Assembly (NCBI GenBank): GCA_900696515.1 | Contig: CAADGK010000070.1 | Coordinates: 1-35,387, forward strand | From: an uncultured Nitrosospira sp. | GTDB lineage: Bacteria > Nitrospirota > Nitrospiria > Nitrospirales > Nitrospiraceae | Direction: 5' to 3' | Length of the DNA: 35,387 bases | Shown: positions 5,962-31,889 of the stretch, piece by piece | How positions within the stretch are numbered: position 1 is the first letter of the stretch | Layout: every line of letters starts with the position of its first letter | Made by a program: the position numbers and the translations under genes | Notes under the pieces: model-generated | Databases searched by the model: none | Told to the model about the DNA's origin: nothing | Seen by the model: the letters and a program-made list of their open reading frames with translations, nothing else

Positions 5962-6067
5962 GTGATGTGCTTCCTCGTTGCTCGATCAGCTACTGGGAGT
6001 CGGATGACGAGATACTGCGCACAATTACAACATCGTAACAGCCGTCCGATCATGGCTCTCTATCTCC

Positions 6068-6841
6068 TCATTTTGCTTCAAAGGACAGATCCAGTGACAC
6101 TGTCTCGTTCGGTTTCACGGTGATCTTCTGCACCTGCGTTCCTACAATCGGATGCCACGCCTTGATCTGGTACGTGCCGGCAGGGAGGTCGGCTAGGGCA
6201 AACGAGCCATTACTGTCCGTTACGGCATAGTAAGGATTGTCGATCGCATACCCCCAATTCTGCATGTACGGATGCATGCCGCACTGCATGGTGAACACTT
6301 TTCGCCCTTTCACCAACTGAACGATATCAGTCGTCCCGCTCGAGTTCAGTGCAGGGCGATGGAGGACGATATCGACTCCTGCAAGGTCGTAGGCATACCC
6401 CTGAATGTCATGGGCCACCGGATCTCGATTGACCACGGTAACTCGACGCTTGTCGCTGACCACGGTCACGAATGGCAAAAACTGGCACATCGTTGCTTCG
6501 ACTTCAGCATCGGTGAAGGTAAACGGCTTGCCTTTTTGAATGTCCTCAATAACGATCACCACATCTTTAAGGCCGCCCTCCTGACTAACAGTAACTTCTT
6601 TCAGAAGGCGATGTCCGTTTCCATCTGACAGCTCCCCACAAAATGCACGGTCTGGGTAGCGGTGCAGTTTGAATTCTTTTGGCTCCGGTACCGAGCCCTT
6701 GAACGTGACCTTCCCCCGCACGATCGCGCCATCAGTCACGGTTCCGGACTCATAGGCCTCGGCGTTTTCCAACCACCCAAGGCTCAGCAGAGCTGATACA
6801 CAGATCATCATCCACAGTCCTGTCCATGTCGCTGTTTTCAT
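6068..6841 (-). CDS. Exported cupredoxin-like protein with C-terminal carboxypeptidase-regulatory-like domain
   Basis: This is a 257-residue protein. The signal peptide is residues 1-29 (ending ENAEA). A beta-rich domain follows, with VNRDPVAHDIQGY (H144) and MQCGMHPYM (C187, H190, M193). The spacing His...C-x2-H-x2-M is that of type-1 copper sites in cupredoxins. The last 60 residues (AVTDSNGSFALADLPAGTYQIKAWHPIVG) are a carboxypeptidase-regulatory-like beta-sandwich. A role as a periplasmic copper or electron-transfer protein is inferred; copper binding is not proven. It has a strong ribosome-binding site (GGAGGGGAG). A sigma-54 promoter on the same strand (7063-7076) with an upstream dyad (7173-7187) precedes it, leaving a leader of about 210 nt. 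Confidence 0.82.
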   Translation of the reverse strand: MKTATWTGLWMMICVSALLSLGWLENAEAYESGTVTDGAIVRGKVTFKGSVPEPKEFKLHRYPDRAFCGELSDGNGHRLLKEVTVSQEGGLKDVVIVIEDIQKGKPFTFTDAEVEATMCQFLPFVTVVSDKRRVTVVNRDPVAHDIQGYAYDLAGVDIVLHRPALNSSGTTDIVQLVKGRKVFTMQCGMHPYMQNWGYAIDNPYYAVTDSNGSFALADLPAGTYQIKAWHPIVGTQVQKITVKPNETVSLDLSFEAK

Positions 6842-7062
6842 ACTCCCCTCCGATTTTATAATTGCTGTCGCACAGTTACCGCCGGATCGGCTCTATCCGA
6901 ATGACTGATCAGCCTGAGCGGAAACCGCTGGATTTTGGGTACTCACCAAACAAGTGTCGGGGTGGACTGTCATCCCAAGGCCTTAGAGCAATCGCAACGG
7001 CTGCACCGATTACCTAAACGACCGATGGTGAGGTGATCCTCCTGCCTTACAAAATTTCAGAA

Positions 7063-7076
7063 GCAACTCGTATGCC
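7063..7076 (-). promoter_or_regulatory. Sigma-54 (-24/-12) promoter, leftward
   Basis: On the minus strand the element reads AGGCATACGAGTTGCTT, with GG (7075-7076) and GC (7063-7064) separated by exactly 10 nt, as sigma-54 RNA polymerase requires. It agrees with the consensus TGGCAC-N5-TTGCW at GGCA and TTGCT. Its 17-base core differs at one position from the element at 13984-13997. Transcription would start near 7051 and run into the cupredoxin-like gene (start 6841). Confidence 0.75.
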
Positions 7077-7172
7077 TGATGAAGCTGACACGACATCTAC
7101 TGATTTTTTCAATGCCTTAGTATAGAACTGTGACAGGAGGAGAACATGCAAGACTCCAAGTAGATGAGAAAC

Positions 7173-7187
7173 ATGCAAACTTTGCAC
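7173..7187 (-). promoter_or_regulatory. Upstream activator dyad for the leftward sigma-54 promoter
   Basis: Read on the minus strand this is GTGCAAAGTTTGCAT; its inner 13 bases (7174-7186) form a perfect odd palindrome. It lies 96 nt upstream of the -24 GG of the promoter at 7063-7076. A near-identical dyad (13874-13888) sits 95 nt upstream of the second sigma-54 promoter. Position and symmetry fit a binding site for an NtrC-family activator, most simply the one encoded at 15797-17155 (inference). Confidence 0.65.
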
Positions 7188-7425
7188 GGTGATGGTCGAG
7201 GTTTCGTCCCGGGTGATAGTGAAGTCCGGCATCACCACTTGCAACAGGATGAATGCTGCGGCAGATACTTCCCGGGGGCGCCGTACGACAACGTGTGGTG
7301 CGTCACAAAAAAACAACGGAATCGAGAGAACATGAACCTGCTGATGAATCATCACCCACACACACGAAGGAGATGTGTCGGGCAGTCCTGACAAGAGCAA
7401 AACCTGACTCACCGAGGACCGAGGC

Positions 7426-10107
7426 ATGAGGGACGAGCATCGAATAGCTCGATCAGAAGGCGATTCTGATCCACAGGAAACGGGCGAATGGTTGGACTCG
7501 CTCGAGTACGTACTCGAGCGACACGGCGTCGAGCGGGCCACCTATTTGTTCGAACGACTCCGCGACCGGTTGGGCGAACGTGGCGCCCAGGTCGCCCAAT
7601 CGGTCAACACTCCGTACATCAACACGATTCCAGCCTCTCAGCAGCCGCCCTACCCAGGTAACCTCGAACTAGAACGCCGAATCCGCAGCCTAGTCCGCTG
7701 GAATGCCATGGCGATGGTCGTCAAGGCCAACCAGCAGCGTCCTGGCATCGGCGGACATATTTCGACCTTTGCCTCAGCCGCCACCCTCTATGAAGTCGCG
7801 TTACACCATTTTTTACGGGGCAAAGCAGGACCCCAGGGCGGCGACCATGTCTACTTCCAGGGCCACGCTGCGCCAGGGATCTATGCGCGTAGCTTCGTCG
7901 AGGGACGCCTCCACGAGGAAGCGCTCTACCACTTCCGTGCCGAACTCGACCCCAAGGGGGGCGGCTTGTCCTCCTATCCACACCCTTGGTTACTCCCTGA
8001 CTACTGGGAGTTTCCGACCGTCTCGATGGGCTTGGGGCCGATCCTGTCGATTTACCAAGCACGCTTCAACCGTTACCTACACGATCGAAGTCTTAAAGAC
8101 ACGAGTCAACAACGAGTCTGGGCGTTCGTCGGCGACGGTGAAACCGACGAACCGGAAAGTCTCGGCGCCCTCTCACTCGCCTCACGGGAACGGCTCGACA
8201 ATCTCATCTGGGTCGTCAATTGTAATCTACAACGCCTCGATGGTCCTGTACGCGGCAACGGCAAAATCATTCAGGAGTTGGAAGCAATCTTCCTCGGCGC
8301 TGGCTGGCGCGTCATCAAGGTAATCTGGGGCAGCGATTGGGACCCGCTGCTCGCGAAGGATGAAGAAGGCCTCCTGGTCAAGCGGATGGGCGAAGTGGTG
8401 GATGGTTGGTATCAAAAGTATGTGGTAGAAGGCGGCGCCTTCGCGCGGGAGCATTTCTTCGGTGCCGATCCGCGGCTGCTCAAACTAGTGGAACACTATT
8501 CCGACGAACAGATCCACAAAATGCTACGAGGCGGGCATGATCCGCGAAAACTCTACGCTGCCTACAAAGCCGCCGTGGAACACAACGGACAACCCACCGT
8601 GATCCTGGCAAAAACGATCAAGGGCTACGGTCTTGGCGAAGCCGGCGAAGGACGCAACATCACCCATCAACAGAAGAAAATGAACGAACAGGAGTTACGG
8701 GAATTTCGCACGAGATTCAGCGTGCCGGTGCCGGACTCGGAGCTGACGTCGACCCCGTTCTACAGACCGCCAGCCGACAGCCCCGAGGCTGCATACCTCG
8801 CCGAACGCATTAAGGCGATGGGCGGTCCCATTCCGGAGCGGCGCATCAACGTCGAATCGCTCAAGACGCCGGCGCTCGACCAGTTTAAGGAGTTTCTCGA
8901 AGGATCGGGAGAGCGTTTGGTTTCTACCACCATGGGGTTTGCCCGAATGCTAAGCCGCCTGCTCGGCATGAAGGATTTTGGGAAATATCTCGTCCCGATC
9001 ATTCCCGACGAAGCGCGCACATTCGGCCTTGAGGCACTCTTCCGGCAATACGGCATCTACTCGCACGTCGGCCAGCTGTATGAGCCGGTGGACAAAAACT
9101 CGCTGTTGTACTATTTCGAAGCCAAAAACGGGCAAATTCTTGAAGAAGGCATTACGGAAGCAGGTGCCATGTCTTCGTACATCGCGGGTGGGACCGCTTA
9201 CGCGACACACGGAATCAACATGATTCCGTTCTATATCCTCTACTCGATGTTCGGGTTTCAACGGATCGGCGACTTGCTCTGGGCGGCCTGCGACATGCGC
9301 ACTCGGGGGTTCGTACTAGGCGCCACTGCCGGACGCACGACATTGGAGGGGGAAGGCTTACAGCACCAGGACGGGCAGAGTCATCTACTCGCCAGTGCCT
9401 ACCCAACGATTGCGGCCTACGATCCGGCCTTCATGTTTGAGCTGGCGGTCATTCTTCAAGACGGACTCAAGAGGATGTACCAGGATCAACAGGGCCTTTC
9501 CTATTACATCACTCTGTACAACGAATCCTACCAGATGCCGGTGATGCCGCCGAATGCGGAAGAAGGCATCCGCGAGGGTCTGTATCGCTTGAGAGTCGCA
9601 CCGGATCGTGCCAAGCACCGTGCACATCTCCTCGCAAGCGGTCCGCTGGTGAATGAAGCCCTACGTGCGCAGAGCCTCCTGCTCGGCTACGGAGTAGCCG
9701 CCGATGTGTGGAGCGTGACGAGCTATAAGCAGCTGCGAATGAGCACACTCGAGACCGAGCGGTGGAATCTGCTGCACCCAGAAGACGTACCCCGCATAAG
9801 CTACCTGCAACGGATCGTTGAGCGGTTCGATGGCCCTTGCGTGGCTGTCAGCGACTACGTGCGCTTGGTCCCCCAGCAGATCGCGCCCTGGATTCCCGGT
9901 GGCCTCCTCACCCTGGGAACGGATGGGTTTGGCAGGAGCGATACCCGTCAGGCGTTGCGGCGCTTCTTCGAAGTCGACGCAGAGCATTTGGTCGTGGCGA
10001 CACTCTACGCCCTATTTCGTCGGGGAGCCGTGTCGGCACACCTGATCACGCAGGCTGCACGGGATCTCGAGGTTTCGACCGATGGAGAGGCTCCTTGGCT
10101 CCGGTAA
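7426..10107 (+). CDS. aceE: Pyruvate dehydrogenase E1 component, homodimeric type
   Basis: This is an 893-residue protein, the usual length for the single-chain (alpha2) E1 enzyme. It decarboxylates pyruvate with thiamine diphosphate and transfers the acetyl group to the lipoyl arm of E2. The thiamine-binding motif GDGE begins at G236 and the downstream Asn lies near 267 (VVNCNLQRLDGP). Other conserved blocks are GHISTFASAATLYEV, HVYFQGHAAPGIYARSF and, in the C-terminal half, LEGEGLQHQDGQSHL and YYITLYNESY. The ATG start follows GAGGACCGAGG. It is the first gene of a four-gene operon with E2 (40-nt gap), E3 and a lipoate ligase. Confidence 0.98.
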   Translation: MRDEHRIARSEGDSDPQETGEWLDSLEYVLERHGVERATYLFERLRDRLGERGAQVAQSVNTPYINTIPASQQPPYPGNLELERRIRSLVRWNAMAMVVKANQQRPGIGGHISTFASAATLYEVALHHFLRGKAGPQGGDHVYFQGHAAPGIYARSFVEGRLHEEALYHFRAELDPKGGGLSSYPHPWLLPDYWEFPTVSMGLGPILSIYQARFNRYLHDRSLKDTSQQRVWAFVGDGETDEPESLGALSLASRERLDNLIWVVNCNLQRLDGPVRGNGKIIQELEAIFLGAGWRVIKVIWGSDWDPLLAKDEEGLLVKRMGEVVDGWYQKYVVEGGAFAREHFFGADPRLLKLVEHYSDEQIHKMLRGGHDPRKLYAAYKAAVEHNGQPTVILAKTIKGYGLGEAGEGRNITHQQKKMNEQELREFRTRFSVPVPDSELTSTPFYRPPADSPEAAYLAERIKAMGGPIPERRINVESLKTPALDQFKEFLEGSGERLVSTTMGFARMLSRLLGMKDFGKYLVPIIPDEARTFGLEALFRQYGIYSHVGQLYEPVDKNSLLYYFEAKNGQILEEGITEAGAMSSYIAGGTAYATHGINMIPFYILYSMFGFQRIGDLLWAACDMRTRGFVLGATAGRTTLEGEGLQHQDGQSHLLASAYPTIAAYDPAFMFELAVILQDGLKRMYQDQQGLSYYITLYNESYQMPVMPPNAEEGIREGLYRLRVAPDRAKHRAHLLASGPLVNEALRAQSLLLGYGVAADVWSVTSYKQLRMSTLETERWNLLHPEDVPRISYLQRIVERFDGPCVAVSDYVRLVPQQIAPWIPGGLLTLGTDGFGRSDTRQALRRFFEVDAEHLVVATLYALFRRGAVSAHLITQAARDLEVSTDGEAPWLR

Positions 10108-10147
10108 GCAAGGCTGACGCACTAAGAACGATTGGTAGGGATATGAC

Positions 10148-11440
10148 ATGAAAGTCGAGCTCCCATTTCTTGCGGAGGGTATCGAAGGCGGGGATGTCGT
10201 TCAGTTGTTGGTGCACGAGGGGGATCAAGTACGCGAGGGACAATCGCTGATTGAACTTGAAACCGAAAAGGCCACCGTGCCGGTGCCGGCGCCCGTCGAA
10301 GGTACTGTCGTCCGTCTCCTCATTCAGCAAGGAGATCACGTGAAGGTCGGGCAGACGATCATTGAACTACAGGAATCTGAGGATAAAGCAAGAAAGGCGC
10401 AGACATCGGTTCCAGAGGAGTCGGCTGCCGTGAAACCGAATGCCGAGGCACAACGGGATCACCCGCAGGCCAGGCCGACTAGTCCAATACCGACACCTGA
10501 GCGACCGGTCGTGGATCAGAAACCTGCCGTGGTCAGTCGACCGCCAGCGGGTCCAGCTATCCCAGCCCCGCCATCAGTTCGCCGGCTCGCGCGGGAACTG
10601 GGCGTAGATCTTTCACAGGTCAACGGATCGGAAGCCGGTGGGCGAATCACGGCTGAAGACGTGAAAACCTTCGTGCGGGAACGGACCACGCGCGGCACCA
10701 AGCTGGGGATAGGGGGGAATATCTTTTCCACGCCCTATGGGTCTGAACGGCGAGAGCCACTTTCCTCAACCCGTCGGAAAATCGCGGCGAACATGATACA
10801 AGCCTGGACAACCATCCCACACGTCCATCAATTCCAGGATGCTGATATCACCGATCTCATGGCCCTGCATAAACGGTATGCCCCGGAATTTAAGAAGAAA
10901 GGCGCCACGCTGACGTTGAGCAGTCTCTTTCTGAAAGCTGTCGTCCATGCGCTGAAACTGTACCCGCAGCTGAATGCTACTCTCGATCTCACCAACGGCG
11001 AGGTGATCTACAAGGACTACTACAACATCGGCGTGGCGGTGGACACACCAGCTGGCTTAATTGTGCCGGTTGTTCAGCAAGTGGACCAGAAAGATCTTCT
11101 CCAAATTTCGCTTGAGCTGGCCGACCTTGCCGAACGAACCCGCAAGCGAGAGGTTAAGCTCGAGGAGCTACGCGGCGCAACGTTCACGCTCAGCAACATG
11201 GGAGGAATCAGCGCTGGTCCGTTCCTGCCGATCATTAATCCTCCGCAAGTCGGCATTCTTGGTGTCGGAAAGGCACGGATAACGCCGGTGTATCGGGACG
11301 GACAATTTGTGCCACGGCGAGTATTACAATTGTGCGTCGCCTATGATCACCGTCTGATAGACGGAGCGATCGGGGCACGCTTTACCAACGAGATCGTCAA
11401 AGTATTGGAAGATTTTCAGGGCATGTTTCTGGGGCTCTGA
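10148..11440 (+). CDS. aceF: Dihydrolipoamide acetyltransferase (pyruvate dehydrogenase E2)
   Basis: This 430-residue protein has a single N-terminal lipoyl domain (residues 1-76) with the lipoylated lysine at K41 in ELETEKATVPVP. A Pro/Ala-rich linker follows, then a peripheral-subunit-binding domain at about 143-177 (VRRLARELGVDLSQVNG, GGRITAEDV), and the acyltransferase core with the catalytic HRLIDG motif (H401, D405). A single lipoyl domain is fewer than the three of E. coli E2. It receives acetyl groups from E1 and passes them to CoA. It lies between E1 and E3 in the operon. Confidence 0.97.
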   Translation: MKVELPFLAEGIEGGDVVQLLVHEGDQVREGQSLIELETEKATVPVPAPVEGTVVRLLIQQGDHVKVGQTIIELQESEDKARKAQTSVPEESAAVKPNAEAQRDHPQARPTSPIPTPERPVVDQKPAVVSRPPAGPAIPAPPSVRRLARELGVDLSQVNGSEAGGRITAEDVKTFVRERTTRGTKLGIGGNIFSTPYGSERREPLSSTRRKIAANMIQAWTTIPHVHQFQDADITDLMALHKRYAPEFKKKGATLTLSSLFLKAVVHALKLYPQLNATLDLTNGEVIYKDYYNIGVAVDTPAGLIVPVVQQVDQKDLLQISLELADLAERTRKREVKLEELRGATFTLSNMGGISAGPFLPIINPPQVGILGVGKARITPVYRDGQFVPRRVLQLCVAYDHRLIDGAIGARFTNEIVKVLEDFQGMFLGL

Positions 11441-11513
11441 ACGGGACGTGGTAGGGGGGGGATCTCGTGAAGCGTCCGCAGTCAACGAGATACGAGACCT
11501 GCAGGAGGGGGGT

Positions 11514-12929
11514 ATGGCTGAATTGCGTTATGACGTCGCGGTGATCGGCGCCGGTCCCGGCGGCTATGCAGCTGCGTTCCAGGCTGCTGATCTTGGATTA
11601 CGCACAGCCCTGATCGATGAGGATTCACAACTGGGCGGAACATGCCTGTTACGTGGCTGTATTCCCTCGAAAGCCTTGCTTCATGCGACTCGCTTGCTCA
11701 CCGACGCAGAAGAGGCGGCAGTCTGGGGCATTCATTTCGGTAAACCTCGCGTGGACCTGGAGGCATTTCGTGACCGCGTGAGTGCGATCATCGGCAAACT
11801 CACGAACGGTGTGCGAACGCTGGCCGGCAGCCGAAAAGTCGAGGTGATCCAGGCACGAGCTTGGTTCAAGGATGCGACAACCCTACAACTCTCTGGAGCC
11901 AATACGCCGTCCGAACTTTCGTTTGGGCACGCAATCATCGCCACCGGCTCAACACCCGTGATACCAGACTCGCTGAGGCTCCGCGATCCACGAGTGATGG
12001 ATTCGACGGGCGCGCTCCGATTGCCAGACATCCCCCCCCGGCTTCTGGTCGTCGGCGGTGGATATATCGGTCTCGAGTTAGGCACAGTCTATCAGGCCCT
12101 CGGATCCGAAGTGACCGTGGTTGAGGCGTTACCACGCCTGCTGAACAACGTCGATGCAGATCTTCTGCGACCGCTGCATCAGCGTCTACTACGCCAGTTT
12201 AAGGCCATCACGCTAAACACCACCGTAGCAAAACTGGACGCGCAAGAGGACGGTCTGGTTGCAACCTTGACAGCGTCCCCAAAGACCAGTACCGAGACCT
12301 TCGATCGCGTACTCGTTGCTGTGGGACGCAGACCCAGTACCAATCAGCTTGGACTAGAACACACAGCGATCACGCTCACACCGCGAGGCTTCATCCAAGT
12401 CGATCGGCAGATGCGCACGACCGAACCGACCATCTTTGCGATCGGTGACGTGGTCGGCGAACCGATGCTTGCCCACAAGGCGACACATGAAGGGTTGGTC
12501 GCCGCTCGAGTTATTGCCGGGAAACAGACAACCTTCGATGCCGCGGCAATCCCCGCCGTTGTCTTCACTGACCCCGAAATCGCTTGGTGCGGATTGACCG
12601 AAGACGCAGCCAGGGTCTCAGGACAAGCCGTGAAAGTCGTGCGGTTTCCCTGGGCTGCCTCGGGACGCGCGACGACGTTAGGCCGGACCGAAGGCGTGAC
12701 CAAGCTCATACTGGATCCTGAATCCGGTCGCGTACTAGGCATGGGGCTTTGCGGCATCGGTGCGGGTGAGTTGATCGCCGAAGGGGTCCTCGCCGTCGAG
12801 ATGGGTGCAGTCGCAGAAGACCTCGCGACCTCGATTCATCCTCATCCGACGGTGAGCGAAACGGTTATGGAAGCGGCTGAATCGTTTTATGGTTCGCCAA
12901 CGCATCTCTTCATCCCCAAGCGGTCATGA
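11514..12929 (+). CDS. lpdA: Dihydrolipoyl dehydrogenase (E3)
   Basis: This 471-residue flavoprotein reoxidises dihydrolipoyl-E2 and reduces NAD+. The FAD-binding GAGPGG motif is at residues 12-17 and the redox-active disulfide is C44-C49 (GGTCLLRGCIPSKALL). The NAD-binding VGGGYIGLELG and a second FAD motif (IFAIGDVVGEPMLAHKA) follow. The catalytic His-Glu pair from the partner subunit is H444/E449 (HPHPTVSE). The start at 11514 was chosen over an upstream in-frame GTG (11448) because GGAGGGGGG lies directly before it and the FAD motif then sits at the usual place. The gap after E2 is 73 nt. Confidence 0.97.
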   Translation: MAELRYDVAVIGAGPGGYAAAFQAADLGLRTALIDEDSQLGGTCLLRGCIPSKALLHATRLLTDAEEAAVWGIHFGKPRVDLEAFRDRVSAIIGKLTNGVRTLAGSRKVEVIQARAWFKDATTLQLSGANTPSELSFGHAIIATGSTPVIPDSLRLRDPRVMDSTGALRLPDIPPRLLVVGGGYIGLELGTVYQALGSEVTVVEALPRLLNNVDADLLRPLHQRLLRQFKAITLNTTVAKLDAQEDGLVATLTASPKTSTETFDRVLVAVGRRPSTNQLGLEHTAITLTPRGFIQVDRQMRTTEPTIFAIGDVVGEPMLAHKATHEGLVAARVIAGKQTTFDAAAIPAVVFTDPEIAWCGLTEDAARVSGQAVKVVRFPWAASGRATTLGRTEGVTKLILDPESGRVLGMGLCGIGAGELIAEGVLAVEMGAVAEDLATSIHPHPTVSETVMEAAESFYGSPTHLFIPKRS

Positions 12930-12930
12930 C

Positions 12931-13650
12931 GTGTCTACGCTTCGTTTGCTCGATCTGACCCTTCCATTTCCTGTCGAGAATCTAGCTCTTGATGAAGCGT
13001 TACTGGAGGAACTTGAGGAACGGGGTGGAGATCCTGTGCTTCGGTTTTGGGAAAGCGACCGTCACTTCGTCGTATTAGGCCGCGCCTCTCGCGTAGCCGA
13101 TGATGTCGACCTCGTTACCTGCCAAGAAGACGGGCTGTCGATCCTTCGACGCGCAAGCGGCGGAGGAACTGTCCTACAGGGGCCGGGTTGCCTCTCGTAT
13201 GCCTTTGTGCTGCCGATCGGGTGGCATCCAGACCTCGTGAATATTCGAACCACCAATCGCTTTATTCTGGAACGAATAGCGACCGCGCTTCGCCGATGGG
13301 AACCAGCCACGACCCTCCGTGGGATCAGCGACATCGCTATCGACGATATGAAGATTTCCGGCAACGCGCAACGACGAACCGGGAAAGTGGTACTCTTTCA
13401 CGGAACGATTCTGCATTGCATGGGAACTGCTCTCATCTCACGATATCTCAAACACCCTACGCGACAACCGGACTACCGCTCAAACCGACCTCACGGCACG
13501 TTCGTGCGGACAATCGACGCTCCACCCCAAGCGATCAAACACGTCATCGCCGACACATGGAACGCGGAGCCGACACACGCTGAATGGCCAAGAGAACGCA
13601 TGCCCCGAATGATCGCAGCCATCCTCGCACGAAGCCGGGACGAATCCTGA
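12931..13650 (+). CDS. Lipoate-protein ligase A family protein
   Basis: This is a protein of about 239 residues in the biotin/lipoate protein ligase fold. Diagnostic motifs are the RRASGGGTVLQGPGCLSYAF loop, which binds lipoyl-AMP, and the lysine-containing DDMKISGNAQRR, followed by VLFHGTILH. It attaches lipoate or octanoate to the E2 lysine, which explains its position as the last gene of the pyruvate dehydrogenase operon. It starts at a GTG one base after the E3 stop, implying translational coupling; an ATG at 12889 inside E3 is an alternative. It could act as LplA (lipoate), as a LipM-type octanoyltransferase or as an amidotransferase; the sequence alone does not decide. Confidence 0.88.
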   Translation: MSTLRLLDLTLPFPVENLALDEALLEELEERGGDPVLRFWESDRHFVVLGRASRVADDVDLVTCQEDGLSILRRASGGGTVLQGPGCLSYAFVLPIGWHPDLVNIRTTNRFILERIATALRRWEPATTLRGISDIAIDDMKISGNAQRRTGKVVLFHGTILHCMGTALISRYLKHPTRQPDYRSNRPHGTFVRTIDAPPQAIKHVIADTWNAEPTHAEWPRERMPRMIAAILARSRDES

Positions 13651-13873
13651 GAGAGGGAGGACCCACCTGCCGCTATGGTCGAGACCGGAATGCTGGGTGG
13701 TCTTCGCCTGGTGCTGGCTTGAAGTGGGAAGCACGAGTGAGAGAAAAAAGTCAACGAGAGGAGATCAGCTGAACCGCAATGATTGCATGATCCTCGTTTC
13801 CAGTGATCCTACCTAATGATGCCAGCATTTCACAACCGTTCTCGAAGATTCGAACTCAAGCACGAACAGCTCA

Positions 13874-13888
13874 GTGCAAACCTTGCAC
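13874..13888 (+). promoter_or_regulatory. Upstream activator dyad for the rightward sigma-54 promoter
   Basis: GTGCAAACCTTGCAC has perfect 6-bp arms (GTGCAA/TTGCAC) around a 3-bp spacer. It is centred about 128 nt before the predicted start of transcription, the usual place for an NtrC-family enhancer site. It ends 95 nt before the -24 GG. The dyad at 7173-7187 matches it at 12 of 15 positions when read in promoter orientation (13 of 15 on the other strand). Confidence 0.65.
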
Positions 13889-13983
13889 ATTGTCCGGCGG
13901 AGTAGGCGCTCGCCATCTGAATCCTTGAATCTAGCCGCAAGCATGTTCCGATAAATCACTGAAAGCTCACTTTATACCAACGA

Positions 13984-13997
13984 GGCATACGAATTGC
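13984..13997 (+). promoter_or_regulatory. Sigma-54 (-24/-12) promoter, rightward
   Basis: AGGCATACGAATTGCTT has GG (13984-13985) and GC (13996-13997) separated by exactly 10 nt, with GGCA and TTGCT matching the sigma-54 consensus. It would start transcription near 14009, about 100 nt before the small CxxC gene (14108). The operon it heads encodes a sigma-54 activator, which suggests autoregulation. Confidence 0.75.
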
Positions 13998-14107
13998 TTT
14001 GGATTGTTGCAGGCAATGAAATCGTCGGGACCTTGGTTGCAACTAACAACGCATGATCCCCGCGATACATCGATCCATGTTTGAGGTGAATATCGGAGGT
14101 ACTCCAC

Positions 14108-14296
14108 ATGAACGTTTCGTCGAGTCAATTCACCGAATCCCAGTCAAGGGCATTAAAATATTGCGACCGATGCGCCCGCCGTGCTGCCGCACTTTTTTAT
14201 GACGATCTCACGTTGAAAGAGCTTTGTCAGGAGTGCTGCGCCCAGTTGAATTGGAAGCGCATAATCGCTTCCAGTCCGGCGCAACTGAAGATGTGA
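14108..14296 (+). CDS. Small double-CxxC (zinc-ribbon-like) protein
   Basis: This is a 62-residue protein. C19-C22 (YCDRC) and C40-C43 (LCQECC) form two CxxC pairs 17 residues apart, consistent with a zinc-binding knuckle. A strong GGAGGT lies 7 nt before the ATG. It sits directly downstream of the sigma-54 promoter at 13984-13997 and about 110 nt before the histidine kinase gene, so it is the first gene of the signalling operon. I do not recognise a named family; a role as a small accessory or metal-sensing protein for the kinase is only suggested by position. Confidence 0.75.
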   Translation: MNVSSSQFTESQSRALKYCDRCARRAAALFYDDLTLKELCQECCAQLNWKRIIASSPAQLKM

Positions 14297-14405
14297 GCGA
14301 ATGCCCATACCCCTTCTCACCGCACCCCGTCTCGCAGGTAGAACGTCGACTGTATCGCGGGTAGTTCGCGTGATAGCATAGGGGCGTAGCCTTTCAACTT
14401 CCGCC

Positions 14406-15800
14406 ATGTTTAGGCCTATTCCAAAAGCCACGCTGTTTCGACGCATTCCATACCGTCTCATTACCTCTGTCGTACTCATTCTCGCGTTGGTCGTGACCGT
14501 CATCCTCCTCATGAGCTTGGAGCGAGACAAGCTCCTCCTCCAAGGATTCACGCAAAATCAGGCGGTCCCCACGGAGTTGTTTCAGGCGCTCTGGCGATCT
14601 CGGCATGACCTGATCGGGATTACTCTTCTTGTGTTCTTAGTCAGCGCCATCGGAATGGCGGCGCTCATCACCTTTCTGCATTACGACAATACGAGACGGA
14701 CTCTTGAAGAAGTCAAAGGTCTCGCGAGAAATATTCTTGAGAGTATCCCGACGGGCGTACTCACCATTAATCGCGACGGCCAAGTCACAGCCGTCAACCC
14801 CTCTGCCGTGGCGACATTGAAACGGTCGGCGGAAGAATTGCTCGGTCACTCCTATGAACAAATGTTTCTCCAAGGAGATACGATTCGTCTTGTACTCGAT
14901 GGAGCACTGCATAACAACCATCATGTGGATCATCATGATATGCCGTATCGCGCCGGTGACGAGACTCGTACGATACGCCTTGCAACTGCTGACCTGACAG
15001 GAGATGAGGGGAGACCGGTCGGCATCATTATGCTACTGAAAGATGTCACGGCGCTGCTAGCCTTGGAACGGCGGGTACTCGTAGCGGAAAAACTCTCCGC
15101 CCTCCATACCTTGTCCGCCGGCGTCGCCCATGAATTACGAAATCCGCTGAGCGCAATGGATTTGAATCTGCATCTTCTCGATGAAACATTGAAGGAACGA
15201 GGTGAGCTGGAACAGGACGTGGCGCACTATCTTCAGGTCGTGAATGCCGAATGTCGACGCCTCTCCGTGATTTTGGATAACTTCATGAGGTTCGCGCGTC
15301 CCACCTCGGTGGGTCTCCATGAAATGGACTTGGGAAGAGTCATCGCACATCTCATGGCACTCATGCAGTTTGAGGCACAGGAACGAAAGATCAAACTGGA
15401 GGATCGGATTGATGAAGAATTACCCCCGGTGTTTGGGGATGAGACACAGATTAGCCAGGTCCTCGTCAATGTCCTGGTGAATGCGTTTCAGGCCATGCCC
15501 GATGGCGGGCGGTGTTCGATCATCACACAGGTACAGCGAAATGCCGATGTGTGTTGGGTAGAGGTCGTTGTGTCCGACACGGGGATCGGAATCAAGCAAG
15601 AAGACTTGTTACATCTATTTGAGCCGTTCCATACCACGAAGACTAGCGGAACAGGCCTCGGTCTGGCTATTGCCTACCGCATTATGCAGGACCACGGGGG
15701 AACCATTCGTGTCTCCAGTGTACTTGGAAGTGGGACGACCGTGGTTGTGCAGCTTCCCGTGGCTGCCGACTCCCTTCAAAAGCTTGGGGTAGGGGCATGA
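14406..15800 (+). CDS. Membrane PAS-containing sensor histidine kinase (NtrB/AtoS/ZraS-like)
   Basis: This is a 464-residue protein. Two membrane segments (about 18-37 and 70-91) flank a very short periplasmic loop of roughly 30 residues. A PAS domain lies at about 107-220 (ILESIPTGVLTINRDGQVTA). The HisKA phospho-acceptor is H242 (GVAHELRNPLSAM), and the ATPase part has the N box (VNVLVNAFQAMP), G1 (DTGIGI) and G2 (GTGLGLAIAYRIM). The small external loop suggests the signal is read by the PAS domain or within the membrane. It overlaps the activator gene by 4 nt. No Shine-Dalgarno is obvious before the ATG. Confidence 0.93.
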   Translation: MFRPIPKATLFRRIPYRLITSVVLILALVVTVILLMSLERDKLLLQGFTQNQAVPTELFQALWRSRHDLIGITLLVFLVSAIGMAALITFLHYDNTRRTLEEVKGLARNILESIPTGVLTINRDGQVTAVNPSAVATLKRSAEELLGHSYEQMFLQGDTIRLVLDGALHNNHHVDHHDMPYRAGDETRTIRLATADLTGDEGRPVGIIMLLKDVTALLALERRVLVAEKLSALHTLSAGVAHELRNPLSAMDLNLHLLDETLKERGELEQDVAHYLQVVNAECRRLSVILDNFMRFARPTSVGLHEMDLGRVIAHLMALMQFEAQERKIKLEDRIDEELPPVFGDETQISQVLVNVLVNAFQAMPDGGRCSIITQVQRNADVCWVEVVVSDTGIGIKQEDLLHLFEPFHTTKTSGTGLGLAIAYRIMQDHGGTIRVSSVLGSGTTVVVQLPVAADSLQKLGVGA

Positions 15801-17155
15801 CGAATGCCGCACAAATCCTCATTGTTGACGACGAGCTGAACATTCGCAACGCGCTGGTGACTCTCCTTGCAAGGAAAGGCTATCGAGCCCTAAGCGTGGC
15901 GACGGCGGATGAAGCGTTGGATGTGTTTGAAACAACTGCAGTGGATTTAATAATTACTGACTTGCGGATGCCGGGAATCGGGGGGATGGAATTTCTGCGG
16001 AGGCTGCGCACACAATGGCCCAGCACAGAAGTGGTCGTCATGACGGCCTATGGATCCATCGAAACTGCAGTGGAAGCGATGCGGGCTGGAGCCTACGATT
16101 ATCTCACCAAGCCCATCGATCGCGAGCGGTTCCTCATCGTGATGGAGAAGGCGCTCGAGCGACACCGTCTTGCCAGCGAAAACCAGCAGCTCCGGGATCG
16201 ACTTGAAACGAGAACACGGTTCGAACGAATGGTCGGTGATAGCGAACCGATGCAACAGGTGTATCATCTTGTGGAGATGGTAGCGGGAAGCGACGTGACC
16301 GTATTGCTCACGGGTGAAAGTGGAACCGGGAAGGAGCTCGTCGCACGTGCCATCCACGATAAAAGCCATCGGGCCGACGGACCGTTTATTACCCTCAACT
16401 GCGGCGCATTGCCTGAAGCTCTGTTTGAAAGTGAGTTGTTCGGCTATGAAAAAGGCGCCTTCACCGGCGCGTTGTCCACCAAAGCCGGTCGGTTTGAATT
16501 GGCGCACGGCGGAACGCTGTTATTGGACGAAATCGGTGAGCTCTCCTTGAAATCCCAAGTCGACTTTCTTCGTGTTTTAGAGACCAAGGAATTCCGTCGT
16601 CTGGGTGGAACAAAGGTTGTGACTGTGGATGCTCGCATCATTGCCGCCACCAACCGAAACCTGGCGGAGGCCGTCAAGCAAGGGACTTTCCGCGAGGATC
16701 TTTTTTATCGACTGAATGTGGTCCCGATTCACTTGCCGCCGCTGCGCGAACGGGGAGAAGACATTCCCCTCCTCGTTGAGACCTTCCTGCCTGAATTTTG
16801 CACGCAGCATCAACGAGCGCTGAAGCACATCTCTCGAGAAGCGATGCGCCTGTTACGGCTATATGCCTGGCCGGGAAATATTCGACAGCTCCGTAACCTG
16901 CTCGAACGGCTGGTCGTCACCGTGCGGGACCCCACGATTCTCTCGGAGCATTTGCCGGAGGAGATTCAGGTCAGTCGGGAAGACCTCAGGACCATAGTCG
17001 TCAGTCTCGGGAAATCCTTGAAGGAAGTTGAAAAGGAAGTCATCCGCCGCACCCTCATGGAAATGACTAACCACCGTGAGAAAGCTGCCAGCCTACTCGG
17101 TATCAGCCTGCGGTCTCTCCAGTATAAGATTAAAGAATATGGGATTCGTGAGTAA
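15797..17155 (+). CDS. Sigma-54-dependent response regulator (NtrC family)
   Basis: This is a 452-residue protein with three domains. The receiver (1-120) has phospho-acceptor D55 (IITDLRMPG). The AAA+ domain has Walker A GESGTGKE (from about 173) and an intact GAFTGA loop (220-225) that contacts sigma-54, plus LLLDEIGEL as Walker B. The C-terminus is a Fis-type helix-turn-helix (REKAASLLGISLRSLQYKI). It is the cognate partner of the kinase, with overlapping ATGA start and stop. It is the best candidate to bind the GTGCAA dyads at 7173-7187 and 13874-13888 and to activate the two sigma-54 promoters. Confidence 0.97.
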   Translation: MTNAAQILIVDDELNIRNALVTLLARKGYRALSVATADEALDVFETTAVDLIITDLRMPGIGGMEFLRRLRTQWPSTEVVVMTAYGSIETAVEAMRAGAYDYLTKPIDRERFLIVMEKALERHRLASENQQLRDRLETRTRFERMVGDSEPMQQVYHLVEMVAGSDVTVLLTGESGTGKELVARAIHDKSHRADGPFITLNCGALPEALFESELFGYEKGAFTGALSTKAGRFELAHGGTLLLDEIGELSLKSQVDFLRVLETKEFRRLGGTKVVTVDARIIAATNRNLAEAVKQGTFREDLFYRLNVVPIHLPPLRERGEDIPLLVETFLPEFCTQHQRALKHISREAMRLLRLYAWPGNIRQLRNLLERLVVTVRDPTILSEHLPEEIQVSREDLRTIVVSLGKSLKEVEKEVIRRTLMEMTNHREKAASLLGISLRSLQYKIKEYGIRE

Positions 17156-17515
17156 GGTCCTCCAAACCACTCACCTAACTGCACAAGACTAAGCCCCTCT
17201 CGTCGCATCTCCACCTCAACCTGCAATTCCTGCACGTATGCGATTGATTCCATAAAGACGTAACTGTTTGATCCATAAAGAAACCTCTGAGATTGAGCTA
17301 TCGGTCAAAGGATGCCGGCGTGCAGATTTTGCAGATAGCCAACTTCCTTATCTCCTGGTCGTAAGCCCCGTGTCGCACTCGCCCGGAGGTTTCCGTTGTA
17401 AGCGCACAATAAATCGATGGCTTTGTCCAATCACCTCTTGCGGCATCCAGTATGCAGAGAGTCCTTTCCAGGAACTGGACCCAAGCAATTGGAAGGGATA
17501 CAAGCGGAAGAGAAC
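17156..17515. other. Intergenic region, nothing recognised
   Basis: About 360 nt lie between the activator gene and the lipoprotein gene. I found no correctly spaced sigma-54 promoter with good consensus, no dyad of the GTGCAA type and no clear terminator. Confidence 0.5.
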
Positions 17516-18151
17516 ATGACCGTTCCGTCACAGCTCACAGGGGCTGAGGTTCTCCTCGTCCTCCTTTTGATGAATGCCTGCGCGCAACCGCCTGCCTTTC
17601 AACTTGAGGCAGCCCAAAAGGCGGTCGACGAGGCCAAACTTGCGGGGGCAGAGATCTATGCGAAGGACGACTTTATGAAATTAGAGCAGGAGTTCGCTCT
17701 GGCCAAGGATGAGTTGGCTAAGCAAGAGACGGTCTTCTCCATTTTCAGATTGTACGACGACGTGGACGAAATGCTGAGCACGGTCGTTGAGTATGGGGGG
17801 CGCGTGGCAGCCAAGGCATCGAAAAACAAGGAAGTGGCCAAAACGGCAGCGCTTGCGATGGAACAAGACGCTTTGTGGGCCGTGGTATCTGCCAAGAGAC
17901 TGACGACCAGTACCCTGAGGAGGACGGAACGAGATGCGCAAGAAGTGATCAAGCAGCAGCTCACAGCATTAGAGGCGGGTGTCGCTGAGGTACATGGGCT
18001 TATCGAGAACGGTGACTATCTTACGGCGGAGATGCACGCCAAGACATTGAAGGAGAACGGGGTTGCGGTTTCCGGAGCGCTATCGAAAAGGCTAGAGGGC
18101 GAAAGTCCAGGGCCCATGTATAACGACTACAGGGACTTATTGAGAAACTAG
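17516..18151 (+). CDS. Lipoprotein with helical DUF4398-like repeat region
   Basis: This is a 211-residue protein. A lipoprotein signal ends in the lipobox-like LMNAC (cysteine about residue 21). The mature part is almost entirely amphipathic helix, rich in Ala, Glu and Lys (FQLEAAQKAVDEAKLAGAEI, FALAKDELAKQE), as in the DUF4398 family of periplasmic helical proteins. The start at 17516 was chosen over longer upstream options because GGAAGAG lies just before it and the signal peptide then begins at the N-terminus. A structural role at the outer membrane or in contact with peptidoglycan is likely; no enzyme motif is present. Confidence 0.75.
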   Translation: MTVPSQLTGAEVLLVLLLMNACAQPPAFQLEAAQKAVDEAKLAGAEIYAKDDFMKLEQEFALAKDELAKQETVFSIFRLYDDVDEMLSTVVEYGGRVAAKASKNKEVAKTAALAMEQDALWAVVSAKRLTTSTLRRTERDAQEVIKQQLTALEAGVAEVHGLIENGDYLTAEMHAKTLKENGVAVSGALSKRLEGESPGPMYNDYRDLLRN

Positions 18152-18234
18152 GTGCAGAAGCGGTGTGTGTCATGGGGAGGGTGGTCGAGTTCATGGAGGC
18201 GAATTCTTGACCGGCCTCCGGAATCGTCATCGGA

Positions 18235-18483
18235 ATGTTGTCACTTCGGGAGCAACAGGTCGCATTGTTGAAGGTGATTGAGTACCTGGCAGCCATTGTG
18301 TTTGTGGTCGGAGCCCTAGTCTGGGGCTGGTATCTGACACTTTTATTTTGGCTCATCCTTGTCGTGCTTCCATATAGCCTGTTGCGTGTCATACAAAACG
18401 GAGAACATGAGAATGAGCTGTCTAGTCGTCTTGGCCAGCACCTTCCGGAACAGAAAGCACGATCGCAAGAACGGACCTTTTGA
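18235..18483 (+). CDS. Small two-segment membrane protein
   Basis: This is an 82-residue protein. Residues about 16-50 are strongly hydrophobic with a short turn (YLAAIVFVVGALVWGWYLTL, then LFWLILVVLPYSLL), giving two membrane segments or one hairpin. The N- and C-termini are polar, and the tail is charged. It starts at an ATG 83 nt after the lipoprotein; the ribosome-binding site is weak. I do not recognise a family and infer only that it is an inner-membrane protein. Confidence 0.5.
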   Translation: MLSLREQQVALLKVIEYLAAIVFVVGALVWGWYLTLLFWLILVVLPYSLLRVIQNGEHENELSSRLGQHLPEQKARSQERTF

Positions 18484-18633
18484 CGGTAGCGTCGGGCATG
18501 AAAGTCATAACCCTGTCGATCCAAGCGACTGCAGTAATTCAATCGTGCACCTGATCGGCACGCCAATGCGAGTGAATCCACTATCGGTAGGGTGCTGAGA
18601 AGATCGATCTGAATTAGTGAGGAGAACAATATC

Positions 18634-18915
18634 GTGAGTGTGGGATCAACAGGAGAATCCGTACGACCTTCCCCATTGCCGAAGGAAGACTGGCTTGTCC
18701 GACTCGCACGGCTTCAAGCACTGCTGACGGCCTGTCCCAGCGATCTTCTTTCGAGATGCGAGCTGGCCGCACTTCTCGAAACGATGGACATGTACGAGGA
18801 AGCCTTGATCCACTGGAAAGTCGTCATCGATCTCGATGCGAACCATCTCAACGCGCGGGAGGGCGTCGTTCGCTGCCATCAGAAGACAGGTCTTTATCCC
18901 CGATCTGCAGGATGA
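18634..18915 (+). CDS. Short TPR-like helical protein
   Basis: This is a 93-residue protein starting at GTG with GAGGAG about 12 nt upstream. Residues about 40-82 read as a tetratricopeptide-type helix pair (LLSRCELAALLETMDMYEEA, then LIHWKVVIDLDANHLNAREG). One full repeat plus flanking helices is typical of small TPR adaptor proteins. It ends 10 nt before the next candidate gene (18926). A protein-protein interaction role is inferred from the fold only. Confidence 0.6.
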   Translation: MSVGSTGESVRPSPLPKEDWLVRLARLQALLTACPSDLLSRCELAALLETMDMYEEALIHWKVVIDLDANHLNAREGVVRCHQKTGLYPRSAG

Positions 18916-20135: not shown

Positions 20136-22163
20136 ATGCTGAATCTGTTGTGGCTTCTTCTCGGCGGGTATGGGGTCGGAATACTGCTTCCGCTCTGTCT
20201 GCCAGGACGGCCAGGGTTGCAACAGCTCACAAGCAATGTTGCCGCCATCGTGGGAACCAGCACAGGTGTCATCCTTGGGCTTCTGGGTCTCACGTCGTCG
20301 GAGCCCGTCACGGGATCGCTCGCCTCCACCATTCCTCTGCTCACCTTCACCGTTCGGCTTGATCCACTCGCGGCATTCTTCGTCCTCACGATCTCCCTCG
20401 TGGGTCTTGCTGCCTCGATTTATGCCATTGGATACCTGCAGCATTTCGAAGAGCGCGCATCGACCGACACGCTCGGAGCGCTCTTTAACGCATTTCTCCT
20501 CTCTATGACGTTCGTTGTCCTGGCGGATAACGCGTTCTTCTTTCTGCTCGCTTGGGAACTCATGTCGCTACTATCCTATTTCCTCGTGGTGACTGAGCAC
20601 GAGAAGGCGGAAGTGCGGTACGCGGGATTGTTCTACTTGATCATGACGCACATCGGAACTGCGTTTATTGTCGTGGCGTTCTTGATCTTCTTCCAGGGTA
20701 CCTGGTCGTTCTCCTTTGAAGCGTTTCGGCATCCAGCACAACCCCTACCGGAAGGCATGAAAACTCTCGTATTTCTCATGGCCTTACTCGGGTTCGGCAC
20801 GAAGGCCGGCATCATACCACTCCATGTGTGGTTGCCCTATGCGCATCCCGTGGCCCCGTCGCATGTCTCAGCCGTGATGTCTGGCGTCATGATCAAAACT
20901 GCGATCTATGGCTTGATCCGCGTGTATTTCGACTTCTTCGGTGGGCAGTTTCCCTGGTGGTGGGGGTTCACCGTACTACTCCTGGGGACCACATCCGCGT
21001 TACTTGGGGTGATGTACGCCTTGATGGAACATGATCTCAAAAGACTCCTTGCGTTTCACAGCGTGGAGAACATTGGAATTATCCTGATGGGCCTTGGGGC
21101 TGGCATGATCTTTCAGGCCTACGGATTGAGAGAACTGGCCGCGCTTGGACTGCTGGCTGGACTCTACCATACGATCAATCACGCCCTATTCAAGGCCCTC
21201 CTATTCTTAGGGGCCGGCTCACTGCTCTATGCGACACATACGCGCAATATGGAAGAGTACGGCGGCTTGCTGCGACGCATGCCGTGGACGGGGATCTTTT
21301 TTTTGATCGGAGCCGTGTCAATTTCTGCGTTGCCCCCTACCAATGGATTCGTGAGTGAGTGGCTGGTGTTCCAAACACTTTTTCTCAGTTTTCAGATTCC
21401 AACCGTATTTCTCAAACTGATGCTACCGATCGCAGCAGCGATCTTGGCTCTCACCGGCGTGCTGGCCTTGACCTGCTTCGCAAAAGCCTTCGGGATTTCG
21501 TTTCTCGCACAGCCACGAAGTACGCATGCCCGTCAGGCTGAGGAGGTTCCGGTTTCGATGCGCACGGGCATGGGTATCTTGGCCGCCCTTTGTGTAGCGC
21601 TGGGCGTTGCCCCAATGGTGGTCGTGCCGTTATTGGATCAAATTGTCGCTCCCCTAGCAGGAATCTCGATCGCGAGCAAGGTCTTGGCAATCGATGGATG
21701 GGCGCTAGCCCCGGTAAATGTCGAATTCTCAAGCCTGTCCACCCCGGTCCTTGCGTTGCTGCTTGTTGCGTCGGCGATATTGGGATTGGGACTCGCCGTC
21801 GTGCTCGGTGGTCGTCTCACAACACGCCGTTCAAAATCTTGGGGCTGTGGGATCACTCTCACACCCCGGATGGAATACACCGCAACTGGTTTCGTCCAGC
21901 CGATCAAACGAGTGTTCAGTACGATTTATCAGCCGACGGTGAAACTCGAAACGGAGTTTCTCGCCGAATCACGATACTTCTCCAAACGGCGACACTTTGA
22001 ATTTCACATTGAACCGATCTTTGAGAAGTATCTCTATGATCCCTTGGTGGCATTCTTTGGGACGCTGGCCGACCGCCTGAAAGTCATTCAGGCCGGTAGC
22101 CTACACCTCTACCTAACCTATATGTTCGTCACACTGATCGCCTTACTGCTGCTCGCGGTGTAA
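20136..22163 (+). CDS. hyfB: HyfB/NuoL-like antiporter-type membrane subunit (Ehr complex)
   Basis: This is a 675-residue polytopic protein of the complex I NuoL/M/N and Mrp antiporter superfamily, closest in layout to HyfB of hydrogenase-4. The conserved transmembrane glutamate (E141 in LLAWELMSLL) and the proton-pathway lysine (K223 in GFGTKAGIIPLHVWLP) are present, with LPYAHPVAPSHVSAVMSGVM and LAFHSVENIGIILMGLGAG. The C-terminal 100 residues extend as in HyfB. It should translocate protons or sodium when coupled to the hydrophilic subunits. It is the first gene of the operon; the next start is 3 nt after its stop. Confidence 0.93.
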   Translation: MLNLLWLLLGGYGVGILLPLCLPGRPGLQQLTSNVAAIVGTSTGVILGLLGLTSSEPVTGSLASTIPLLTFTVRLDPLAAFFVLTISLVGLAASIYAIGYLQHFEERASTDTLGALFNAFLLSMTFVVLADNAFFFLLAWELMSLLSYFLVVTEHEKAEVRYAGLFYLIMTHIGTAFIVVAFLIFFQGTWSFSFEAFRHPAQPLPEGMKTLVFLMALLGFGTKAGIIPLHVWLPYAHPVAPSHVSAVMSGVMIKTAIYGLIRVYFDFFGGQFPWWWGFTVLLLGTTSALLGVMYALMEHDLKRLLAFHSVENIGIILMGLGAGMIFQAYGLRELAALGLLAGLYHTINHALFKALLFLGAGSLLYATHTRNMEEYGGLLRRMPWTGIFFLIGAVSISALPPTNGFVSEWLVFQTLFLSFQIPTVFLKLMLPIAAAILALTGVLALTCFAKAFGISFLAQPRSTHARQAEEVPVSMRTGMGILAALCVALGVAPMVVVPLLDQIVAPLAGISIASKVLAIDGWALAPVNVEFSSLSTPVLALLLVASAILGLGLAVVLGGRLTTRRSKSWGCGITLTPRMEYTATGFVQPIKRVFSTIYQPTVKLETEFLAESRYFSKRRHFEFHIEPIFEKYLYDPLVAFFGTLADRLKVIQAGSLHLYLTYMFVTLIALLLLAV

Positions 22164-22166
22164 CCG

Positions 22167-23117
22167 ATGCTCCATACGATCGCTCTCATCGTGACCCAAA
22201 CCGCCGTCTTACTCGCGTTTTCCCCGTTTCTTATCGGTCTGATTCGAAAAGTCAAAGCCCGGTTGCAATTGCGACGAGGTGCGAGCGTCCTTCAGCCATA
22301 CGCTGACTTGGCCAAGCTGTTCCACAAGCAGCCGGTGATCTCAACCACCACCTCCTGGATCTTTACGGCGACACCATACATCGTATTTGCCTCTATTTTG
22401 ACTGCGGGTCTACTGGTCCCCACATTCATCTCGCAGATACCCATGAATTTTGCTGGAAACATCATTGCGCTGGTCTACCTCTTGGCCCTGGGCACGTTCT
22501 TCTTGATTCTTGCGGGACTCGATGCTGGATCAGCCTTTGGGGGGATGGGAAGCAGTCGAGAGGCGATAGTCGCGTCACTGACCGAGCCAGCCATGATGCT
22601 CGCGATCTTTGCAATTGCCCTCACCAATGGGTCAACGAATGTGAGCACCATTGTTCATAAGACGGCGTTACTGGAAGGCATTATTACGGACCCGTCACCG
22701 CATTTGATGGCACTGGCCGCCCTCTTTATCGTGGCGCTCGCGGAGACAGGGCGGGTACCAGTCGACAATCCGGCCACGCATCTGGAACTGACCATGATTC
22801 ATGAAGCCATGGTCCTTGAATACTCAGGGCGCTATCTTGCCTTACTCGAATGGGCGGCCGGTCTGAAACTCGCGGTGTTCCTTTCTTTGATCGTCAATGT
22901 CTTCGCGCCGTGGGGCATCGCGACAACAGTTACCCCAACTGCGATTGGAATCGGGCTCCTAGTATACGTAGTGAAGACAGCAGCTCTCGCGGTGTTGATC
23001 GGAGTCATCGAATGTATGTTCGCCAAATTGCGGTTGTTCCGGGTCACGGATCTGTTGGGCGTGGCGTTCATCCTCGCTCTACTCGGGTTGCTGTTCTTTT
23101 ATATTCTTCGGAGTTGA
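22167..23117 (+). CDS. hyfC: HyfC/NuoH-like membrane anchor subunit (Ehr complex)
   Basis: This is a 316-residue membrane protein with about eight hydrophobic segments, of the NuoH/HycD/HyfC family. The cytoplasmic loop AETGRVPVDNPATHLELTMI followed by HEAMVLEYSGRY (from residue 191) carries the glutamates that in complex I line the quinone cavity and start the proton path. LFHKQPVISTTTSWIF near the N-terminus is also family-typical. It anchors the iron-sulfur small subunit (26954-27463) to the membrane arm. The next gene starts 4 nt after its stop. Confidence 0.93.
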   Translation: MLHTIALIVTQTAVLLAFSPFLIGLIRKVKARLQLRRGASVLQPYADLAKLFHKQPVISTTTSWIFTATPYIVFASILTAGLLVPTFISQIPMNFAGNIIALVYLLALGTFFLILAGLDAGSAFGGMGSSREAIVASLTEPAMMLAIFAIALTNGSTNVSTIVHKTALLEGIITDPSPHLMALAALFIVALAETGRVPVDNPATHLELTMIHEAMVLEYSGRYLALLEWAAGLKLAVFLSLIVNVFAPWGIATTVTPTAIGIGLLVYVVKTAALAVLIGVIECMFAKLRLFRVTDLLGVAFILALLGLLFFYILRS

Positions 23118-23121
23118 TCGG

Positions 23122-23787: not shown

Positions 23788-23798
23788 CCGAGGTTGTC

Positions 23799-25337: not shown

Positions 25338-25343
25338 GAGAGG

Positions 25344-26942: not shown

Positions 26943-26953
26943 GGAGGCCGAAC

Positions 26954-31489: not shown

Positions 31490-31887
31490 GCACTGTATCG
31501 CACTGGAAACAATACCTGTGGTGCGTCGGCGTCCTGCTGATGCTGTGTGTCATCACCATGCCGCAGGAGGCCCACGCGGCGGGGACGGCTGGGGGCGGTC
31601 TCCCCTACGAATCCGCGTTGACCCGGTTGCGGGCGTCGATCACCGGCCCCGTCGCCTTTACCTTGTCATTAATCGGGATTGTGGGCGCTGCCGGGGTATT
31701 GATCTTCGGCGGCGAACTGACGGGTTTTTTGCGCATGATGGTCTTTTTGGTGTTACTGATCGCCATCCTTGTGGGCGCCCAAAACGTGCTGACGACGCTC
31801 TTCGCCGCAGGAGCCGAGATCGCATGGAGCGGGAAGGGGAAGGCGCTGGCGGCATCGGCTCATCCTGAACTGATGAGGCGGAGCTGA
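31486..31887 (+). CDS. trbC: Conjugal pilin TrbC (VirB2 family)
   Basis: This is a 133-residue protein. The signal peptide is about residues 1-31 (ending EAHA), followed by two hydrophobic segments ([37 protein letters not shown]) joined by a short loop, the layout of the TrbC/VirB2 pilin. In RP4, TrbC is processed and cyclised; whether that occurs here is not visible. It overlaps trbB by 4 nt and is 2 nt from trbD. Confidence 0.9.
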
Positions 31888-31889
31888 CC

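Follow-up and report, generated by a model that had tools for sequence, protein, structure and literature searches.

A putative autoregulated sigma-54 two-component operon in Nitrospirales and its likely link to an Ehr-type membrane complex

What switches on the operon encoding a sensor histidine kinase and an NtrC-type response regulator in the window, by which we mean the whole 35,387-nt stretch of contig CAADGK010000070.1 analysed here, and which other genes answer to the same activator? The initial annotation had claimed a GG-N10-GC type -24/-12 element with a GTGCAA-type dyad upstream, centred near -128. Both are present, and a third block lies between them. The 4.59-Mb genome to which the window belongs has Nitrospira genomes as its nearest named relatives.

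13874-13888, + strand: P1 enhancer dyad GTGCAAACCTTGCAC (GTGCAA, ACC, TTGCAC), predicted activator site, spacing fixed in relatives
13946-13957, + strand: P1 mid-loop block, best 12-column block at a fixed distance from the -24/-12 element, tentatively assigned as candidate IHF/HU bend site
13983-13997, + strand: P1 -24/-12 element AGGCATACGAATTGC, conserved, predicted start near 14009

The two 6-bp arms of the dyad are perfectly inverted copies of each other, 3 nt apart, and AGGCATACGAATTGC has one mismatch to TGGCAYRNNNNTTGC, the -24/-12 element being defined as GG-N10-GC near the consensus TGGCACG-N4-TTGC. A gap of 94 nt separates the two; counting the last C as -12 puts the predicted start near 14009, with a 99-nt leader ahead of the first gene, and centres the dyad near -128. 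The predicted activator site lies in the range of about 80-200 bp upstream and on a preferred helical face, as at sigma-54 promoters, and the genome carries rpoN, with one RpoN gene. Dyad matches with at most two mismatches number 5 in the window versus 1.8 expected by chance, which is near chance and only mildly unusual, and -24/-12 sites with at most two mismatches are not above chance (29 found, 33 expected). As a spaced pair the two elements are far beyond chance: the window has two strict pairs with a gap of 94-96 nt, whereas 2000 windows simulated with a first-order Markov model have none. No sigma-70-like promoter and no terminator were found in 13650-14420, nor any Rfam family in 6000-18700. 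P1 very probably drives expression of its own two-component regulator.

The presumed transcription unit behind P1 opens with the 62-residue double-CxxC protein that had been named as its first gene, an ORF that we confirm, followed by the kinase and the activator.

14108-14296, + strand: CxA, 62 aa, C-x2-C-x17-C-x2-C, without Pfam or NCBIfam match
14406-15800, + strand: membrane sensor histidine kinase, PAS, HisKA with H242, and HATPase
15797-17155, + strand: NtrC-type response regulator, receiver with D55, AAA+ with GAFTGA, and Fis-type HTH

The intact GAFTGA loop previously reported for the activator is found at residue 220, together with Walker A and the receiver D55. Receiver aspartate, Walker A, GAFTGA, Fis-type HTH and partner kinase are all the features expected of an NtrC-type two-component activator, and GAFTGA is kept in 16 of 17 aligned regulator orthologs. 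At least one small CxxC protein is found in 40 of the 79 loci examined, with all four CxA cysteines invariant in the 25 sequences chosen for alignment; at L139 and L175, which have P1, the stretch from there to the kinase yielded no CxxC gene. In relatives, the P1 operon frequently carries genes for two proteins of this type, CxB, likewise small and with CxxC-x17-CxxC, and then CxA (L180:7711-8103, L142, L158, L163 and others); the window strain has CxA without CxB. An ABC transporter follows CxB-CxA in N. defluvii L180, an NDH-2 gene lies inside the P1 operon of L136, and other genes stand ahead of the kinase in other relatives. A structure prediction for CxA (mean pLDDT 61) was too weak to use. 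The kinase gene of L057 is split by an apparent frameshift, which may be a metagenome-bin assembly error.

The autoregulated architecture proposed for this operon is supported, by inference only, and its description was incomplete, leaving out the cognate kinase and two further copies of the promoter.

7187-7173, - strand: P2 enhancer dyad GTGCAAAGTTTGCAT
7103-7114, - strand: P2 mid-loop block
7077-7063, - strand: P2 -24/-12 element AGGCATACGAGTTGC, gap 95 nt, predicted start near 7051
6068-6841, - strand: secreted-type protein gene downstream of P2, with CarboxypepD_reg domain and CxxHxxM motif
17320-17334, + strand: P3 enhancer dyad, diverged, GTGCAGATTTTGCAG, behind the regulator gene
17441-17455, + strand: P3 -24/-12 element CGGCATCCAGTATGC, gap 106 nt, predicted start near 17467

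The CxxHxxM motif of the secreted-type protein is suspected to be a copper-type site, and the protein, in which a conserved CGxHxYM motif is seen, may be a copper protein or take part in electron transfer. In other strains (L049:3129-3926, L062:6396-7220), a distantly related protein with about 40 percent identity is encoded close to the hyf genes. A structure model of the secreted protein (mean pLDDT 56) was too weak to use; a fold search with it returned nothing at E < 0.001, and the amicyanins among its weak matches were not counted as support. The corresponding genes of L053 and L125 are split by apparent frameshifts that may be metagenome-bin assembly errors. The PDH genes (7426-13650) were also weighed as targets and are not claimed, as no pair in the window scan points toward them.

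P3 is diverged in the window, with one mismatch in the dyad core and ATGC in place of TTGC at -12. The genes behind it lead into a hyf-like operon.

17519-18151, + strand: putative lipoprotein, for which the start at 17519 is probably to be preferred to that at 17417, because P3 lies between them
18235-18483, + strand: 82-aa ORF that some relatives also have in the P3-hyfB interval
18634-18915, + strand: P93, in many relatives the conserved gene that comes first after P3
19451-19747, + strand: P98, conserved ORF ahead of hyfB
20136-27463, + strand: hyf-like operon with hyfB (20136), hyfC-like gene (22167), 221-aa protein (23122), hyfF-like gene (23799), large subunit without CxxC motifs (25344) and small-subunit-like ORF (26756 frame)
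27695-29008, + strand: NDH-2-type FAD oxidoreductase, similar to the protein inside the L136 P1 operon

The hyfB product exceeds the cut-off of NCBIfam PRK06521, hydrogenase-4 subunit B (757 versus 667 bits). The closest solved relative of the large subunit (532 aa) is formate hydrogenlyase subunit 5; it has no CxxC, whereas a group 4 [NiFe] hydrogenase is defined by two nickel-binding CxxC motifs, and we therefore assign the operon to an Ehr-type complex. In the window, P3 and hyfB are about 2.7 kb apart, with the lipoprotein gene and three small conserved ORFs between them and no strong terminator-like site on the way (1 found, 2.4 expected by chance); we infer readthrough from P3 into hyfB. 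Of the 31 loci with at least 6 kb of sequence past the regulator gene, 23 have hyfB downstream of it in the same orientation. In L174, P93 follows the regulator at 347 nt and hyfB at 665 nt, and such close succession of P3, P93 and hyfB in some relatives supports P3 as the hyf promoter. The lipoprotein genes of L046 and L047 are split by apparent frameshifts, possibly metagenome-bin assembly errors. Behind the Ehr and NDH-2 genes, 30473-35387 encodes a T2SSE/VirB11-like ATPase, a TrbC/VirB2 pilin and a CagE/TrbE/VirB4-like protein, type IV secretion or conjugation genes suggesting the border of a mobile element. A further pair, CTGCAAATAATGCAG, with a gap of 104-105 nt, is seen in some relatives (L141:7261, L143:13756, L144:14932, L145:15250, L149:13629, L178:13493, L179:3012), where it precedes the lipoprotein, P93 or P98 gene, and is a possible fourth target promoter. 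The regulator ortholog at L121:10285-11637, beside which a P3-type pair is present, has GAFTSA for GAFTGA in the sigma-54 contact loop and could be a weakened or altered activator.

Does P3 answer to the same activator as P1? P3-type pairs differ from the others in dyad flanks, in spacing (104-107) and in the -12 sequence, which would agree with a regulator that governs P1 and P2 only, with another activator acting at P3-type pairs and the hyf-like operon lying outside the regulon; in accordance with this, the hyf large subunit is present and the kinase absent in 36 genomes. We nevertheless consider this unlikely, given that P3 has the same dyad core and helical phase, directly behind the regulator gene, and that kinase and hyf genes co-occur. 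With an order-wide kinase call at E 1e-130, the kinase is found in 76 of 235 Nitrospirales genomes; 61 genomes have both kinase and hyf large subunit, 15 the kinase only, 36 the subunit only and 123 neither (p 3e-17, a value too small because related genomes are not independent). Kinase and large subunit share a contig in 39 of the 61 genomes, 0.6-16 kb apart. The Ehr operon is likely among the targets of the regulator.

The check that the initial annotation had called for, conservation of the dyad and of the GG/GC spacing, was carried through the order, and both are kept beside the orthologous kinase gene. The strict pair occurs at 47 places in 42 of 235 Nitrospirales genomes (reversed control 1), and 39 of the 47 lie within 8 kb of that gene, even where kinase identity is down to 48-49 percent (G055, G221, G225). 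Of the other eight places, three (G166 C9, G176 C25, G177 C199) fall on short contigs, about 7 kb long, that include the operon's CxxC genes, and five are elsewhere (G096, G050, G204, G039, G221 C123). Motif and kinase are found together in 37 genomes, the motif only in 5, the kinase only in 39 and neither in 154 (Fisher p 1e-16, again too small for related genomes). Within the genus, 17 of 79 genomes have the strict pair, at 20 places (reversed control 0), and 16 of these 17 carry the kinase, which at E 1e-100 is present in 38 of the 79. The strict pair is absent from 39 of the 76 kinase genomes, some of which, such as N. moscoviensis L170, show a P3-type pair only. Two looser patterns were dropped: an early one matched 38 of 59 genomes, with many coding-like matches and a well-populated reversed control, and was replaced by the strict pattern; the other, mis-specified with a fixed central T, matched 11 of 79 genomes of the genus, of which one (G078) had its match at the kinase locus.

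The genome has 22 Sigma54_activat domains, that is, 21 activators besides the regulator, whose own site is predicted, and one of these could bind the dyad, in which case the operon would have a sigma-54 promoter controlled from elsewhere. This is quite improbable, given that pairs across the order lie so largely near the kinase gene, that the strict pair occurs in the window's genome at this locus only (a looser pattern matches at just one more place in the 4.59 Mb, outside the window), and that 5 of the 42 motif genomes are without a kinase match, one of them (G177) with its pair on a short contig bearing the operon's CxxC genes. There is next to no probability that the likeness of the dyad and GG/GC element to sigma-54 signals is accidental and that transcription of the operon starts from an ordinary promoter: each element alone is little or no commoner in the window than expected, but conservation across genera extends to the pair, to its spacing and to its location, and no sigma-70-like site was found in 13650-14420.

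The spacing of the pairs bears on how such a promoter would work. Strict-pair gaps near the kinase are 84 (n=2), 94-97 (n=29), 105-106 (n=7) and 109 nt (n=1), and dyad-promoter gaps cluster at 84, 94-97 and 105-107 nt, approximately one helical turn apart. Under looser rules applied to 58 loci, namely the window and the named loci, some of them short fragments and some near-duplicates, 74 pairs fall in 8 preferred gap values versus 68 over 132 other values. At least one pair at a preferred gap is present at 49 of the 58 (reversed control 1, triplet shuffles 0-1); under these rules none was found at L147, L164, L165, L171, L172, L176, L177, L182 and L185, several of which are short. Gap steps of about 11 nt would fit a looping constraint. 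When 36 spacers are reduced to 21 that are below 65 percent similarity, though still partly related, and these are aligned on the -24/-12 element, a 12-column block 37-26 nt before it holds 6.7 bits of information, versus a maximum of 2.7 bits in 1000 circular shifts. A block of different sequence occupies about this position in P3-type promoters. The IHF site consensus is WATCARNNNNTTR, against which the AAATCCA-like core of the block was set by eye only; among the IHF genes of the genome, IHF-alpha is over its cut-off and a beta-like gene just under. That the block is an IHF site is a guess.

We put at roughly 80 percent the probability that the kinase-regulator operon is autoregulated at P1 and that the same activator acts at P2 and P3, with the Ehr operon among its targets, a reading for which the sequences show the elements, their spacing, their conservation and their linkage. 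The membrane kinase would sense a signal, for which redox or respiratory state is a guess, and phosphorylate the regulator, which would bind the TGCAA-N3-TTGCA dyad near -128. The DNA would loop, aided by a bend at the mid-loop block, perhaps via IHF, and the AAA+ ring of the regulator would open RNA polymerase-sigma-54 at the -24/-12 element. With the same activator acting at P2, ahead of the secreted protein gene, and at P3, ahead of the genes leading into the hyf-like Ehr operon, the system would amplify its own regulator and switch on a membrane energy-conversion module. More tentatively, and with a rather low probability, one may picture a sigma-54 two-component switch that amplifies itself, occurs throughout the order and serves the Ehr complex of nitrifying Nitrospirales alone, in which enhancer spacing drifts only by whole helical turns (84, 95, 106 nt) and one or two cotranscribed small CxxC proteins exert feedback, by way of zinc or redox state, on kinase or regulator.

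Is such a regulon of wider relevance? The Ehr complex is widespread in Nitrospira, and if the regulon is right, the kinase signal tells when the complex is wanted and the promoters are a direct read-out, so that the Ehr complex could become testable. Likewise, enhancer spacings one helical turn apart offer a natural series for studies of DNA looping at sigma-54 promoters.

The Nitrospira Ehr complexes described in the available parts of PMC10284858 and PMC12542776 have the same hyf-like operon and a large subunit without CxxC; those parts describe the enzyme genes, call their function unknown or unsettled and give no regulator. As far as their accessible text goes, Nitrospira papers that mention sigma-54 deal with nxr regulators (PMC6606698, PMC7522533) and flagellar FleQ (PMC5767232), and PMC5596200 lists FhlA for all the Nitrospira genomes that it covers and names it as likely activator of the hyf-like genes. 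The regulator scores below the NCBIfam cut-off for FhlA, the formate hydrogenlyase transcriptional activator (303 versus 830 bits), and for the NtrC equivalog of nitrogen regulation, TIGR01818 (442 versus 558.6 bits). The E. coli formate hydrogenlyase and hydrogenase-4 system resembles the present one in the linkage of a sigma-54 activator to hyf-type genes, but the complex here, unlike those of E. coli, is without Ni ligands. FhlA is not known to have a receiver or a cognate kinase. A literature search among open-access papers returned no description of the kinase-regulator pair, its promoters or regulon. ZraS-ZraR and AtoS-AtoC likewise combine a kinase with an NtrC-type regulator, and their targets differ from those proposed here; the locus falls below the NCBIfam cut-offs for the AtoC and AtoS equivalogs (492 versus 714 and 299 versus 646 bits) and for ZraR and ZraS (393 versus 760 and 186 versus 479 bits). 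ZraR activates its own operon and the neighbouring gene of a periplasmic protein from divergent sigma-54 promoters. The Clostridiales sigma-54 regulons that PMC6615313 derived from comparative genomics are alike in having an activator gene beside its targets, an upstream activator site and a conserved -24/-12 element, with most activators serving one target operon and the rest two to six; they differ in phylum, in activators and in upstream sites that are mostly 100-250 bp away, and the string TGCA is absent from the main text of that paper. Sigma-54 regulons of such build are well known, and the one at this locus appears to be an undescribed member among them.
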